The notes under the pieces are model-generated. The model searched no databases. It saw only the letters and a list, made by a program, of their open reading frames with translations, and was not told where the DNA came from. A stretch of DNA of 64,000 bases from Rhodococcus spelaei (GTDB lineage Bacteria > Actinomycetota > Actinomycetes > Mycobacteriales > Mycobacteriaceae), in the NCBI RefSeq assembly GCF_006704125.1, contig NZ_VIGH01000002.1, positions 62,001-126,000 on the forward strand, given 5' to 3'. A program made the position numbers and the translations under genes. Of the stretch, positions 36,681 through 40,953 are shown one piece after another. Position 1 is the first letter of the stretch. Each line of letters opens with the position of its first letter.

Positions 36681-36891
36681 GCGCGACCCCGGCCGGCACC
36701 GGCCACGCTCGCGACACCGGCCACTCCTCCGACACCCAGCACCGGACACCCCCACTCGACAACCAGCCCACTCACCAGTTCTGACGCCGCTCGCGACGGT
36801 TCGGTTCCACAGTGCCGACACGGATTCTCGCTCCGTGCCCGCCAGCGGACCTCTACCCTGGCGGCCATCCGGCAGGGCAGAAGGGGGCACG
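36681..36891. promoter_or_regulatory. Divergent espG / WS-DGAT promoter region
   Basis: 211 bp between divergent starts, containing a Cys/Pro-codon-like purine-poor tract on one strand but no convincing ORF. The AAGGGGG ribosome-binding site of the WS/DGAT gene is at its right end. Confidence 0.4.
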
Positions 36892-38331
36892 GTGACACTC
36901 ACTCGTCAGGAACGGTCGATCGCACGGCTGGCGCCGCAGGATGCCGAGTACTTCTACAACGAGAGCGAGCGGCATCGCTCGAACATCGTCGCGGTGTACC
37001 TGTTCGACGCCACCGGCGCCGTCGGCGACCTCGACCGGTCGGCGGCGACCGCATGGATGCGTGACCGACTCGACCAGGCCAGGATGTTCACGCATCGAAT
37101 CCGCCGGATACCACTGGACCTCGACCTGCCGCACTGGGAGCTGGACTCGCACCTGGACCTGCATCGACACGTGAGCGCGGAGCCGATCGACGGACCAGGG
37201 TGGGAAGCGGTGCAACGCAGAATCTCTCGCATCGCAGGTACGGCGATCGACCTGACACGACCACCGTGGGAGCTGCACGTGATCACCGGAATCACCGGCG
37301 TCGACGATTCACCCGACCGGATGACCGCCGTAGTGCTCAAGTTTCATCACAGCGCGGGCGACGGCATCGCCACCCGCGACCTCGGGCTGCGCCTGTTCGG
37401 GCCAGCACCGGATCGGCTCCCGCCGACACCCGCACAAGCACCGAATCAGTTGGTCGAGCTAGCTTGGGCGGCCATGATGCTGCCGCTTCGACTCGTCCGG
37501 TTCGGCCGCGGGCTGCACACCACGCAGGAAGCCGACCACCGCACACGCGAACTGTCGGCCATCGGTGAGATCGTCGAGCCGCTCCCCACGCGACCGATGT
37601 GCCGGTTCAACTCCGCCATCGGCACCGACCTCACCTTCGATCATGTGCGAATGCCGAGGGATGCCATCGACGCTGTCCGCGCTGCGGTGCCCGGCGCCAC
37701 GGTCAACGACGTTCTCCTCGCCGCGGTCTCCGGTGCGCTGCGCGCCTACCTGGCGGGGGTCGACGAGACCCCGACCGGATCCCTCGCGGCAATGGTCCCG
37801 ATGTCCCTGCGCGGCACCGGATCCGGGGCAGGCGGTGACACCGACGGGCCCCGCGCTACCCACCTCGCACTACTGTCGGTGGACCTGCACACGGACGCCA
37901 CACACCCCCTCGCTCGCCTTCATGCCATCGTGGCCAGCGCACAAGCCGAGAAGGCCCGGCACCGCAACGAGCATGTTCGGAAGTCCTCGCAGCGCATCGA
38001 GACCACCCCCGCGTGGCTGTTACGGCTGACCGGGCTCGCCCGTCGTTTCCAGCCGCACACAGGGGAGACGGTCGCCCTGCACAACACGATGGTCAGCAAC
38101 GTGCCATGGGTGGGCACCGGACTGACCTTCATCGGGGCACCGGTGGTCCGCAGCTTCGGCGTGCTCGGGGTCGTCGACGGATCCGGGCTCCGTCACCTGA
38201 TTGTAACCTCGGAGCCGAGCGCAGTTGACCTGACCTTTAGCACCGACACCGCCATGATGGCCGACACCCAGGAGTACAAACGCCTGCTACGGGCCTCGTT
38301 GGACGAACTTGTGGTGGCCGTGCGCGACTGA
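36892..38331 (+). CDS. WS/DGAT wax ester synthase / diacylglycerol O-acyltransferase
   Basis: A 479-residue acyl-CoA-dependent acyltransferase. The HHxxxDG active site is at 152-158 (HHSAGDG), with the conserved PPWELH upstream and the NDVLLAAVSGALR and C-terminal SNVPW motifs. Such enzymes store triacylglycerol or wax esters in rhodococci. The GTG at 36892 has AAGGGGG about 7 nt upstream. It heads an apparent cluster with the tiny peptides and mycolyltransferases. Confidence 0.92.
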   Translation: MTLTRQERSIARLAPQDAEYFYNESERHRSNIVAVYLFDATGAVGDLDRSAATAWMRDRLDQARMFTHRIRRIPLDLDLPHWELDSHLDLHRHVSAEPIDGPGWEAVQRRISRIAGTAIDLTRPPWELHVITGITGVDDSPDRMTAVVLKFHHSAGDGIATRDLGLRLFGPAPDRLPPTPAQAPNQLVELAWAAMMLPLRLVRFGRGLHTTQEADHRTRELSAIGEIVEPLPTRPMCRFNSAIGTDLTFDHVRMPRDAIDAVRAAVPGATVNDVLLAAVSGALRAYLAGVDETPTGSLAAMVPMSLRGTGSGAGGDTDGPRATHLALLSVDLHTDATHPLARLHAIVASAQAEKARHRNEHVRKSSQRIETTPAWLLRLTGLARRFQPHTGETVALHNTMVSNVPWVGTGLTFIGAPVVRSFGVLGVVDGSGLRHLIVTSEPSAVDLTFSTDTAMMADTQEYKRLLRASLDELVVAVRD

Positions 38332-38497
38332 GTTCAGCAAAATGCAAGCAAAGTTCGCGTGTTCTTCATTACTTGCAATTGGAATGTTGTTACCGTGCCG
38401 TTTGTTACGAACCGACCGGTTGTAACTGTTCATGCGGTGCACGAATGCTCAGCGACATCGCGCGCCGCCGTCCGAAGTTCGACTCAAGGAGGCACAC
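38332..38497 (+). promoter_or_regulatory. AT-richer promoter region for small-peptide genes, with dyad
   Basis: 166 bp with clearly lower GC than the rest of the window. It holds two direct TTGTTAC repeats (38387 and 38402, 15 bp apart) and a dyad GTTACGAACC...GGTTGTAAC (38404-38426). The AAGGAGG ribosome-binding site (38486-38492) of the first peptide is at the end. Confidence 0.5.
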
Positions 38498-38623
38498 GTG
38501 GGTTCACTTGAAGGCATCATCGGCGCAATCATCCCGGGACTCGGTTCCATGATCGCTGCGGACGGACTGTTCAAGGTGTTCATGGGATCGGTCGACGGTA
38601 GCGTCAACACCCCACCGGCCTAG
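38498..38623 (+). CDS. Small peptide A, 41 aa, porin-like (PorA/PorH-type) candidate
   Basis: A GTG-started ORF of 41 residues with a perfect AAGGAGG 5 nt upstream. The product is acidic and amphipathic: MGSLEGIIGAIIPG at the N terminus, a central hydrophobic stretch and the tail SVNTPPA, with two Asp, one Glu and one Lys. It has no signal peptide. Size, composition and adjacency to mycolyltransferases resemble the corynebacterial PorA, PorH and ProtX outer-membrane polypeptides, which are O-mycoloylated on serine. Serines at 3, 17 and later positions would be candidates. Homology is not proven. Confidence 0.65.
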   Translation: MGSLEGIIGAIIPGLGSMIAADGLFKVFMGSVDGSVNTPPA

Positions 38624-38728
38624 CTTCCACCGGTACGATCGCCGATCGCGCAACGGAAATCACGTGCACCACACCGTGTTAACCCGGGGTCGGGATACAC
38701 CGGCCCCCTCTCACATCTGAGGAGCAAC

Positions 38729-38842
38729 ATGGGATCGATCACCGACGTTCTGGGCCCCCTGGTCACTAGCGCGAACGGCGCCGGCACCAAGGTCATCAAC
38801 GCGCTCATCACACTGAGCGGCGGGACCCCGGCCCCCAAGTAG
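38729..38842 (+). CDS. Small peptide B, 37 aa, porin-like partner candidate
   Basis: An ATG-started ORF of 37 residues (MGSITDVLGPLVTSANGAGT...GGTPAPK) with TGAGGAG 4 nt upstream. It begins MGS like peptide A, shares the small-residue/hydrophobic pattern and a Pro-rich C-terminus, and lacks a signal peptide. Peptide A is acidic and B weakly basic, which suggests a pair, comparable to the two-component PorA/PorH channel. A strong hairpin terminator follows. Confidence 0.65.
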   Translation: MGSITDVLGPLVTSANGAGTKVINALITLSGGTPAPK

Positions 38843-38847
38843 GCATT

Positions 38848-38885
38848 CGGATGCGGACCCGCACCCTCGCGCGGGTCCGCATCCG
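38848..38885 (+). terminator. Strong hairpin between peptide B and mycolyltransferase genes
   Basis: A perfect 15-bp stem (38848-38862 with 38871-38885) and an 8-nt loop, starting 5 nt after the peptide B stop and ending 45 nt before the mycolyltransferase start. It would make a short abundant peptide mRNA with reduced readthrough. Confidence 0.8.
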
Positions 38886-38929
38886 CCTGACGACCACCCA
38901 CACACGCCGCGCAGCACCAAGGATCGCCG

Positions 38930-39952
38930 TTGAGCCCCTCCCCCCACCTGCGTCTCGCCTTCGGCCTCGCCCTGGCTCTGGTCATTCTCTCCGGAGCGCC
39001 GACTGCGAACGCCCAGGCGGCCCCCGGGCCGCAGCAGGGTTCAACCCTCGGCAGCCGCCTGGAAACCCTCGACGTGTACTCGCCGTCGATGCAACGCAGC
39101 ATCCCCCTCGAGATCCTGCGCCCCACGGACACCAGCACCCCGGCGCCGACGCTGTACCTGCTCAACGGCGCGGGTGGCGGCGAGGACGGTGCGACCTGGA
39201 AGGCCCAGACCGACGTCGCACAGTTCTTCGCCGACCGGCACGTCAACGTGGTCGTCCCGATGGCGGGTGCGGCCAGCTACTACACCGACTGGCGCCGTCC
39301 CGACCCCGGGCTCGCGAAGACCGGCGAGAACAACGGCCGGAACATGTGGACCACCTTCCTCACCGAGGAACTGCCCCCGGTCATCGACCGCAAGCTCCAC
39401 ACCACCGGCGCCAATGCCCTTGCCGGACTGTCCATGTCGGGCACGGCGGTCCTCAACCTGGCGATCGCGGCCCCCGAGCTCTACCGAAGCGTCGCAGCGT
39501 ACAGCGGGTGCGCGATGACCAGCCAGGCGCCGGGTAGGCAATTCGTGTCGCTGGTCGTCGAGGCCGGCGGCGGCGACGCGGACAACATGTGGGGACCGCC
39601 GGGCGACCCCGAGTGGACTGCCCAGGATCCGTACGTCAACGCGGACAAGCTCCCACCCATCCCGATATACGTCGCGAGCGGCACCGGACTACCCGGCACC
39701 CACGACAACCTCGCCAACCCGCGATTGAAGGGGAACGCGATCACCCTCGGTAGCCAGATTGTCCTCGGCGGTGTCATCGAGGCCGCGACGAACTATTGCA
39801 CCCACCGACTCGCCGACCGCACCCGCGACCTCGGGATGACCAACGTGGTGTTCAACTTCCGCCCGACCGGAACCCACTCGTGGGGATACTGGCAGGACGA
39901 TCTGCATCGGTCTTGGCAGACGCTCGCGGACGCGCTCGGGGTGCCCCGATGA
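38930..39952 (+). CDS. Secreted mycolyltransferase (antigen 85/Cmyt family) 1
   Basis: A 340-residue alpha/beta-hydrolase with a signal peptide (cleavage near NAQA, residue about 29). The nucleophile motif GLSMSG places Ser at 168; the catalytic His is 316 in GTHSWGYW. This family transfers mycolic acids to trehalose, arabinogalactan or, for corynebacterial MytC, to protein serines. The start is TTG at 38930 with AAGGA 6 nt upstream. It overlaps the next mycolyltransferase by 4 bp. Confidence 0.88.
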   Translation: MSPSPHLRLAFGLALALVILSGAPTANAQAAPGPQQGSTLGSRLETLDVYSPSMQRSIPLEILRPTDTSTPAPTLYLLNGAGGGEDGATWKAQTDVAQFFADRHVNVVVPMAGAASYYTDWRRPDPGLAKTGENNGRNMWTTFLTEELPPVIDRKLHTTGANALAGLSMSGTAVLNLAIAAPELYRSVAAYSGCAMTSQAPGRQFVSLVVEAGGGDADNMWGPPGDPEWTAQDPYVNADKLPPIPIYVASGTGLPGTHDNLANPRLKGNAITLGSQIVLGGVIEAATNYCTHRLADRTRDLGMTNVVFNFRPTGTHSWGYWQDDLHRSWQTLADALGVPR

Positions 39953-40953
39953 TTCGTAGACCATTGCGCCATGCACTGCTCCCGGCAGTCGCCGCCAGTA
40001 TCGTCGTCGCGCCCACCGCGACCGCGCAAACCGTTGTCCCCGAATACGTCTCGGTCTCCCCGGATGCCACGCCTGCGATCGCCTCGGCAACCGAACTCGA
40101 CGGCAGGGTGGTCCTGCAGGTGGCGTCGCCCGCGATGCGCCGGGAGGTCGCGGTCACGGTGCTTCGGCCCGCGGACCGGAGCAGAGCGCACGGAAGCTAC
40201 TACCTGCTCGACGGGAACTCCGGTCAGGTGACCGAGAACAACTGGCTCGACCCCGGACGCGGCAATGCGCGGGAGTTCTTCTCCGACAAGAACGTCAACG
40301 TCGTCCTTCCGATCGGCGGGACAGGCACCAACTACACCGACTGGGACCAGGACCATCCGGTGTTCGGCCGGACCAAGTGGGAGACCTTCCTCGCCGAGGA
40401 GCTACCCCCGCTGATTGACGCCCGGTTCGGTACCAACGGCCGCGCCGTGATCGGCGGCATCTCGTCCGGTGCTGCCGGGGCTGTCATGATCGCACAGCGG
40501 CACCCCGACGTCTTCGCGGGTGCGGTCGGCTACAGCGGCTGTTATCTGACCGACGGACCCGTCGGGAAGGCGCTGACCGACCTCGTCGTGATCAACGGCA
40601 GGGCCACCTCGGAGATGATGTGGGGGCCGCCGGCAGGAGAGCAGTGGCGCACACACGACCCGATCGCGCATGCCGGTGCGCTCGCCGCCAAACCCGTCTA
40701 CCTGTCCTCAGGATCCGGACTACCCGGACCCCACGAGGATCCCGCGTCGCCCGACTTCGCCCGAACCGCCATCGTCGGCGGCGCACTCGAACTCGGCTCG
40801 AAGCTGTGCACCGACCGGCTCGAGCAGGCGCTGCGATCGGCCGGCGCCGTGGTGACGCGAAGCGCCACCCCTGTGGGCACCCATGCCTGGCCGTACTGGC
40901 GCGACGAGCTGGCGCGGTCGTGGCCCACCATCCGGGCAGCCGCGGAGGGATGA
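39949..40953 (+). CDS. Secreted mycolyltransferase (antigen 85/Cmyt family) 2
   Basis: A 334-residue paralogue of the preceding gene with its own signal peptide (cleavage near TATAQ). The nucleophile elbow reads GGISSGAAG, with Ser172; the catalytic His312 is in GTHAWPYW. The ATG overlaps the upstream stop (ATGA), so the two are translationally coupled. The pair diverges in the insertion after the oxyanion region, suggesting different acceptors. Convergent with the YyaL-like gene (2 bp gap). Confidence 0.88.
   Translation: MIRRPLRHALLPAVAASIVVAPTATAQTVVPEYVSVSPDATPAIASATELDGRVVLQVASPAMRREVAVTVLRPADRSRAHGSYYLLDGNSGQVTENNWLDPGRGNAREFFSDKNVNVVLPIGGTGTNYTDWDQDHPVFGRTKWETFLAEELPPLIDARFGTNGRAVIGGISSGAAGAVMIAQRHPDVFAGAVGYSGCYLTDGPVGKALTDLVVINGRATSEMMWGPPAGEQWRTHDPIAHAGALAAKPVYLSSGSGLPGPHEDPASPDFARTAIVGGALELGSKLCTDRLEQALRSAGAVVTRSATPVGTHAWPYWRDELARSWPTIRAAAEG

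Follow-up and report, generated by a model that had tools for sequence, protein, structure and literature searches.

Paired micropeptide genes beside a Cmt1-like mycoloyltransferase in Rhodococcus spelaei: a candidate substrate-plus-enzyme cassette

Are the two very short open reading frames (ORFs) that precede a pair of mycoloyltransferase (Myt) genes in Rhodococcus spelaei genuine genes, and could their products be substrates of the enzymes encoded beside them? The locus lies in a 64 kb stretch of contig NZ_VIGH01000002.1 (the window, whose coordinates are used throughout; the cassette's own strand is +). It comprises pepA (38498..38623, +; 41 codons, GTG start, MGSLEGIIGAIIPGLGSMIAADGLFKVFMGSVDGSVNTPPA), pepB (38729..38842, +; 37 codons, ATG start, MGSITDVLGPLVTSANGAGTKVINALITLSGGTPAPK) and the genes of two enzymes, Myt1 (38930..39952, +; TTG start as listed) and Myt2 (39949..40953, +), which overlap by ATGA, in keeping with translational coupling. 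In the sequence, pepA has a ribosome-binding site AAGGAGG (38486..38492, +) 5 nt before its GTG, and pepB has AGGAG (38720..38724, +) 4 nt before its ATG. Both peptides begin with MGS and carry no Lys or Arg near the start, hence no n-region of a signal peptide, and both are rich in small residues (Gly, Ala, Ser and Thr make up 41% of pepA and 49% of pepB); Myt1 and Myt2, judged by eye, have signal-peptide-like N-termini. A first-pass annotation had thus rightly described two small-residue-rich ORFs of this size with strong ribosome-binding sites, MGS starts and no signal peptides, directly before two coupled secreted mycolyltransferases. We consider it probable that the four genes make up one cassette, encoding two leaderless micropeptides of the mycomembrane as substrates together with the enzymes that act on them.

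pepA and pepB are real, conserved protein genes under purifying selection. The ratio of nonsynonymous to synonymous change (pN/pS) was 0.42 for 27 pepA and 0.51 for 31 pepB coding sequences, drawn from the window and named loci at a match threshold of E 1e-14, which excluded the most divergent sequences (for pepA, e.g., L048, L050 and L056); with pS near 0.5, the ratios are rough. The gap-free core gave 0.42 (A) and 0.53 (B) in frame 0, vs 1.06 and 2.30 (A) and 1.04 and 1.58 (B) in the shifted frames. By one fixed definition, the window holds two MGS-type ORFs, pepA and pepB themselves, and 20 Markov sequences of 64 kb hold none. Single-sequence searches of 61 genomes, the own one included, recovered the two peptides, in unchanged order, from four others; weaker matches outside G002, G004, G014, G018, G026 and G029 were set aside as probably due to chance. 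A longer pepA of 63 aa, from an in-frame ATG at 38432, is unlikely, as the similarity among relatives sets in at MGS, where they have ribosome-binding sites of their own; in the alignment, pepA relatives were taken from their MGS start codons.

How widespread is the pair? Profile searches of 401 genomes of the host family (E up to 0.01) found pepA-like peptides in 52 and pepB-like peptides in 55 of them, although pepB matches near E 0.001-0.01 (e.g., G311) may be chance. Both peptides occurred in 50 of the 401 genomes, and in every one of these 50 the two lay on one strand, A first, no more than 500 bases apart. Nocardia alone accounts for 30 of the carriers; the others are from Prescottella, Speluncibacter and the rhodococci, with G097 as a further, weak case, so that the label "rhodococcal" in the earlier proposal was too narrow. 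A pepB match was found in eight genomes from a 248-genome sample of the whole order, host family included; seven were from the host family and the one elsewhere was a fragment inside a 707-aa frame.

The pair is also tied to the enzymes. Downstream of the pair, on its strand and no more than 2 kb away, a Myt gene is present in 47 of 49 further carriers fetched, the two exceptions being G186, whose sequence stops 782 bases past the pair, and G097, with none in 5 kb. In some loci the A-B unit is repeated, so that two or three copies precede one Myt gene. By best match, the enzyme is of the Myt1 type alone in 30 of the 47 carriers and both types are present in nine; in L192 and L193 the Myt1 match comes in pieces. 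Purifying selection and synteny in relatives, set beforehand as the test of the two ORFs, thus emerged strongly, and co-occurrence with mycolyltransferases likewise. Seen from the enzyme, 80 named Myt1 relatives were retained out of 443: the order A-B-Myt1 is present in each of the first 28 listed, and the other 52 have no upstream pair, a few of them having weak A- or B-like peptides elsewhere in the locus. MGS-type starts numbered 67 in the 28 pair-bearing loci (one nested in another ORF), five in the 52 other Myt loci and zero in 20 simulated 64-kb sequences. As the scan that gave the 80 named loci was seeded by six peptide patterns and missed rhodococcal pair-linked Myt1 genes lacking them (five stretches checked), it serves as a contrast and not as a census.

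Which enzymes are these? Myt1 and Myt2 both match PF00756 (5.8e-35 and 1.5e-28). Compared with solved structures, Myt1 scored 255 bits against Corynebacterium glutamicum Cmt1/MytC, 168 against MytA/PS1 and 126 against Ag85A, and the Ser, Glu and His stretches of Myt1 and Cmt1 align; Myt2 was near-even, with 155 bits for Cmt1 and 143 for PS1. In a tree of 91 rows, which took in the window and 27 named loci as its pair-linked enzymes, these 28 fall into one clade (support 100/100). This clade also holds three pairless rows (two from Tomitella, one from R. globerulus) and is nested in an 83-row set with Cmt1 (100/98), and PS1, grouped with three paralogues from this genome, stands on the far side of the tree (100/100). 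Myt2 takes a place between the two sides, on a long branch. The tree leaves out the Speluncibacter Myt1 (L049), the partial Own_L134 and the own L131 and L140-L142 (stops or fragments). On these sequence comparisons, Myt1 is closer to Cmt1 than to MytA/PS1 or Ag85. Its nearest named relative is that of R. oryzae (75%), and the genome contains 16 Myt-like stretches in all.

For the peptides themselves, Pfam gave no match for either at E up to 10, and NCBIfam none for pepB and a single sub-cut-off match for pepA (E 0.07). Met1-Gly2-Ser3, Asp22, Leu24, Phe28 and Gly30-Ser31 are invariant in 28 pepA rows, as are Met1-Gly2-Ser3, Leu26 and Ser30-Gly31-Gly32 in 24 pepB rows. Of the 28 pepA rows, 28, 27 and 28 retain Ser3, Ser17 and Ser31, respectively; of the 24 pepB rows, 24, 22 and 24 retain Ser3, Ser14 and Ser30. 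Because these near-invariant serines, three in each peptide, mostly adjoin Gly, pepA and pepB are plausible substrates of the adjoining enzymes. Without Met, the masses are 3860.5 Da (pepA) and 3391.9 Da (pepB). The amphipathicity claimed for the peptides is weak for each taken singly: the hydrophobic moment of each window peptide was weakly set off from shuffles (p = 0.10 for pepA, 0.08 for pepB), and the family mean z of 1.6 (pepA) and 1.3 (pepB) stayed below that of the PorA (2.3) and PorH (2.8) sets. AlphaFold2 modelled the pepA monomer as one helix (residues 3-36; pLDDT 77, pTM 0.36).

The known systems that come closest are corynebacterial. PorA, PorH and ProtX are reported to lack signal sequences and to need Cmt1 for their mycoloylation (PMC5310785, PMC11927696, PMC12632848), which in C. 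glutamicum takes place on serine in a Cmt1/MytC-dependent manner (PMC5310785, PMC12632848). PorH and ProtX are described as assembled at the surface and as wall-linked (PMC5310785, PMC12632848), and the mycoloylation sites as sharing no strict common motif, with Ser/Gly surroundings favoured (PMC11066868). As with PorA and PorH, the two genes adjoin, the peptides are leaderless, helix-prone and about 40-60 residues long, the host bears mycolate and there is a tie to a Cmt1-type enzyme; the modified Ser15 of PorA is invariant in seven aligned sequences, and the pepA and pepB serines are nearly so. The two systems differ in gene order, in lengths, in the MGS start and in the locus: porH-porA is placed between groEL2 and ppk2, with no adjoining mycoloyltransferase in that account (PMC3792995), whereas pepA-pepB is flanked by a wax ester synthase/diacylglycerol acyltransferase (WS/DGAT)-type gene and by Myt. 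Enzyme and substrates appear to be encoded apart in C. glutamicum, to go by the locus numbers cgp_0413 vs cgp_3008/3009 (PMC12632848, PMC9671496), and here they adjoin. ProtX (Cg2875) is, like pepA and pepB, very short (38 residues), free of an identifiable signal sequence and furnished with a Ser3 (PMC5310785, PMC12632848), a likeness by description only; it is mycoloylated near the C-terminus, at the penultimate Ser37, in a MytC-dependent manner, and the accounts consulted mention no partner gene (PMC5310785, PMC12632848). The same bacteria also have channel proteins of the MspA family (PF09203; PMC9233653), which are unlike pepA and pepB in having about 200 residues, a signal peptide and a beta-barrel (PMC9233653, PMC11927696); in Pfam, neither peptide matched PF09203.

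Profile comparison by hhalign of pepA and pepB with the PorA and PorH sets yielded probabilities of 0.3-0.6% (E 0.10-0.24), i.e., no detectable homology. With C. glutamicum PorA as query, loci were found in six of 81 Corynebacterium genomes, all six with an adjoining PorH-like ORF and groEL/ppk2-like flanks as recognised by eye. Since PorA relatives surfaced in so few genomes of its own genus, the missing similarity is weak evidence either way. The PorA/PorH-type system proposed by the first-pass annotation is supported in part, its link to the enzymes being better founded than that annotation could tell, with Cmt1/MytC as the closest solved relative of Myt1.

We infer that the cassette probably works like PorA, PorH and ProtX; its membership in the PorA/PorH family is not supported by sequence. 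pepA and pepB would be translated without a signal sequence and would still get through the inner membrane, like PorA, PorH and ProtX. The secreted Cmt1-like Myt1, Myt2 or both may then O-acylate conserved serines with mycolate, candidate sites being Ser17 and Ser31 in pepA, Ser14 and Ser30 in pepB, and Ser3 in both. Acylated pepA and pepB could form joint helical oligomers within the mycomembrane, with pore formation as the likeliest output and a wall tether like ProtX as the alternative. Pairing favours the pore; 11 MspA match stretches in this genome, the modest amphipathicity and the single-helix model of pepA do not.

Several observations weigh against this interpretation. Sequence homology to PorA or PorH is lacking (hhalign below 1%), and with 11 MspA stretches a second porin is not needed. 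The amphipathicity is modest and weak for each peptide alone, and the single helix modelled for pepA departs from PorA, which is reported as two helices with the target serine in the linker (PMC11927696). On the enzyme side, Myt2 is not clearly Cmt1-like and stands outside the Cmt1-side set, though not with PS1; eight of the 47 Myt-bearing carriers have a Myt2-type enzyme only. Cmt1 itself falls outside the Myt1 clade, together with two other rows (support 94/61) and on a long branch, which shows kinship and not orthology. The distribution is patchy, with the pair in three of six searched genomes of the window's own genus and pepB in 31 of 98 Nocardia genomes, and the weak carrier G097 (E 0.002 and 0.007) is the one that has no Myt gene in 5 kb downstream.

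Two further elements belong to the locus. A G+C-rich hairpin without a T run lies between pepB and Myt1 (38848..38885, +), with a stem score of 11 vs at most 5 in 40 shuffles. Tested in 26 loci (L053, L059 and L068 left out), the hairpin in this position beat all 40 single-base shuffles in 15 and did not in the other 11. It is, judging from its sequence, a possible terminator or stabiliser of a transcript end, and partial termination there would yield more peptide than enzyme. A scan for consensus promoters and T-run terminators gave no match, at this hairpin or elsewhere, and the window held no Rfam RNAs above the gathering score and no tRNAs. Upstream of pepA lies the WS/DGAT-type acyltransferase gene (36835..38331, +; start codon uncertain; PF03007 8.9e-27 and PF06974 3.3e-8 on 36889-38328). 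Such a gene is present in 26 of the 28 pair-bearing named loci vs one of the 52 others, and in 40 of the 49 carriers, where it lies upstream on the same strand in 10, downstream on the same strand in 11 and downstream on the opposite strand in 19. That peptides, Myt and WS/DGAT keep company despite this reshuffling suggests a functional tie among them. WS/DGAT genes recur beside micropeptides (window 36835-38331; L181:3407-4864; L208; L209), also in places with no directly adjoining mycoloyltransferase.

What else could the peptides be? The most serious competitor, which we hold to be possible but clearly the less probable reading, takes them for ProtX-like structural peptides: the mycoloylated pair would anchor the mycomembrane to the wall, or act as a surface receptor, and form no pore. 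This overlaps with the cassette proposed above and differs from it solely in the output. It draws on ProtX being a mycoloylated peptide of 38 residues, reported as wall-linked and as a likely phage receptor (PMC12632848, PMC5310785, PMC9671496), on MspA-type porins being plentiful in this genome already and on an amphipathicity below that of PorA and PorH, but the strict two-gene pairing in 50 of 50 genomes is the pattern of PorA/PorH. Chance ORFs, the explanation that their short length would invite, can be set aside as practically excluded, given that pairing, the in-frame selection and the zero MGS-type ORFs in Markov sequences.

In-frame selection on the amino-acid sequence bears equally on the notion that the ORFs are regulatory leaders or attenuators controlling myt1, with peptides that have no function of their own. 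Their place just upstream of myt1 and the hairpin in between would suit such a role, but full-length conservation across genera and the repetition of A-B units, two or three ahead of one Myt, speak for functional peptides, so that we regard regulation as highly improbable. Scarcely better placed are leaderless secreted antibacterial peptides of the bacteriocin kind, to which the adjoining enzymes would be unrelated. Bacteriocins typically come with transporter and immunity genes. pepA and pepB are small, leaderless and partly hydrophobic, but their mean net charge of -2.8 (pepA set) and -0.2 (pepB set) is not cationic, and the recurrent neighbours tested were Myt and WS/DGAT, no systematic search for transporter or immunity genes having been made.

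pepA and pepB are not the only peptides of their kind. This genome has at least 11 other short ORFs that start with MGS and have a ribosome-binding site; they are of several sequence types and occur on contigs 2, 4, 5, 11 (two), 12, 13 (four) and 14 (loci L147, L148, L150, L154, L157, L160, L161, L163, L169 and L254). They came from reading 30 of 35 pattern hits and from the Myt loci; the pattern itself is not enriched (35 hits vs 35 in a reversed control), and the short ORFs are the finding. A second MGS pair (25 and 30 codons here; L180:5314, 5470) recurs in three other genomes, with a Cmt1-like Myt gene close by in three of the four (the own genome, L126:7096-7331 and L255) and none in the short stretch L256; its 30-codon peptide was found by sequence search in three of 81 genomes, the own one included. 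A third micropeptide type, on contig 14, is present in four of the six searched genomes of the genus and adjoins another WS/DGAT gene here. In Prescottella and Tomitella, short GS-rich peptides are encoded in arrays of four to eight close to mycoloyltransferases (L050:5369-9208; L043:6732-10432; L076; L093), and the Tomitella genome G018 gave no MspA match. Locus L020 (contig 13, 180921-184016) encodes two tandem, similar, secreted-looking proteins of about 250 residues with Gly/Ser-rich C-termini and a weak pepB match.

Speculatively, and with low expectation that all of it holds, the MGS N-terminus might mark a genome-wide class of leaderless micropeptides of Nocardiaceae (at least 13 here) that share one dedicated export-and-lipidation route, in which the cytosolic WS/DGAT acts first and the Cmt1-like enzyme afterwards. 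WS/DGAT would acylate the peptide, perhaps at Gly2/Ser3, enabling an exit without signal peptide, and secreted Cmt1-like enzymes would then put mycolate on the inner serines. If true, such a route would explain why WS/DGAT, micropeptides and Myt stay together despite changed order and strand, and it would account for how peptides of the PorA/PorH class are exported.

Small-peptide porins and protein O-mycoloylation are features described for Corynebacterium. A 2018 account sets the small corynebacterial porins against the MspA homologues of Mycobacteria, Nocardia and Tsukamurella, which are larger (PMC5944148), and one of 2024 reports Cmt1 relatives in Nocardia and Rhodococcus and states that protein O-mycoloylation was not demonstrated in mycobacteria (PMC11066868). 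We recognised no description of pepA-pepB-like pairs outside Corynebacterium in the open-licence PMC literature, judged mostly by titles and the beginnings of abstracts. There is a good, if unproven, case that the cassette is a new and widespread variation on the mycomembrane peptides of Corynebacterium, one in which substrates and enzymes are linked, mycoloylation being the step that we infer. With a candidate enzyme and its candidate substrates encoded side by side in many species, mycoloylation outside Corynebacterium becomes readily testable, and the cassette is compact enough to serve for studying the export of leaderless mycomembrane peptides.

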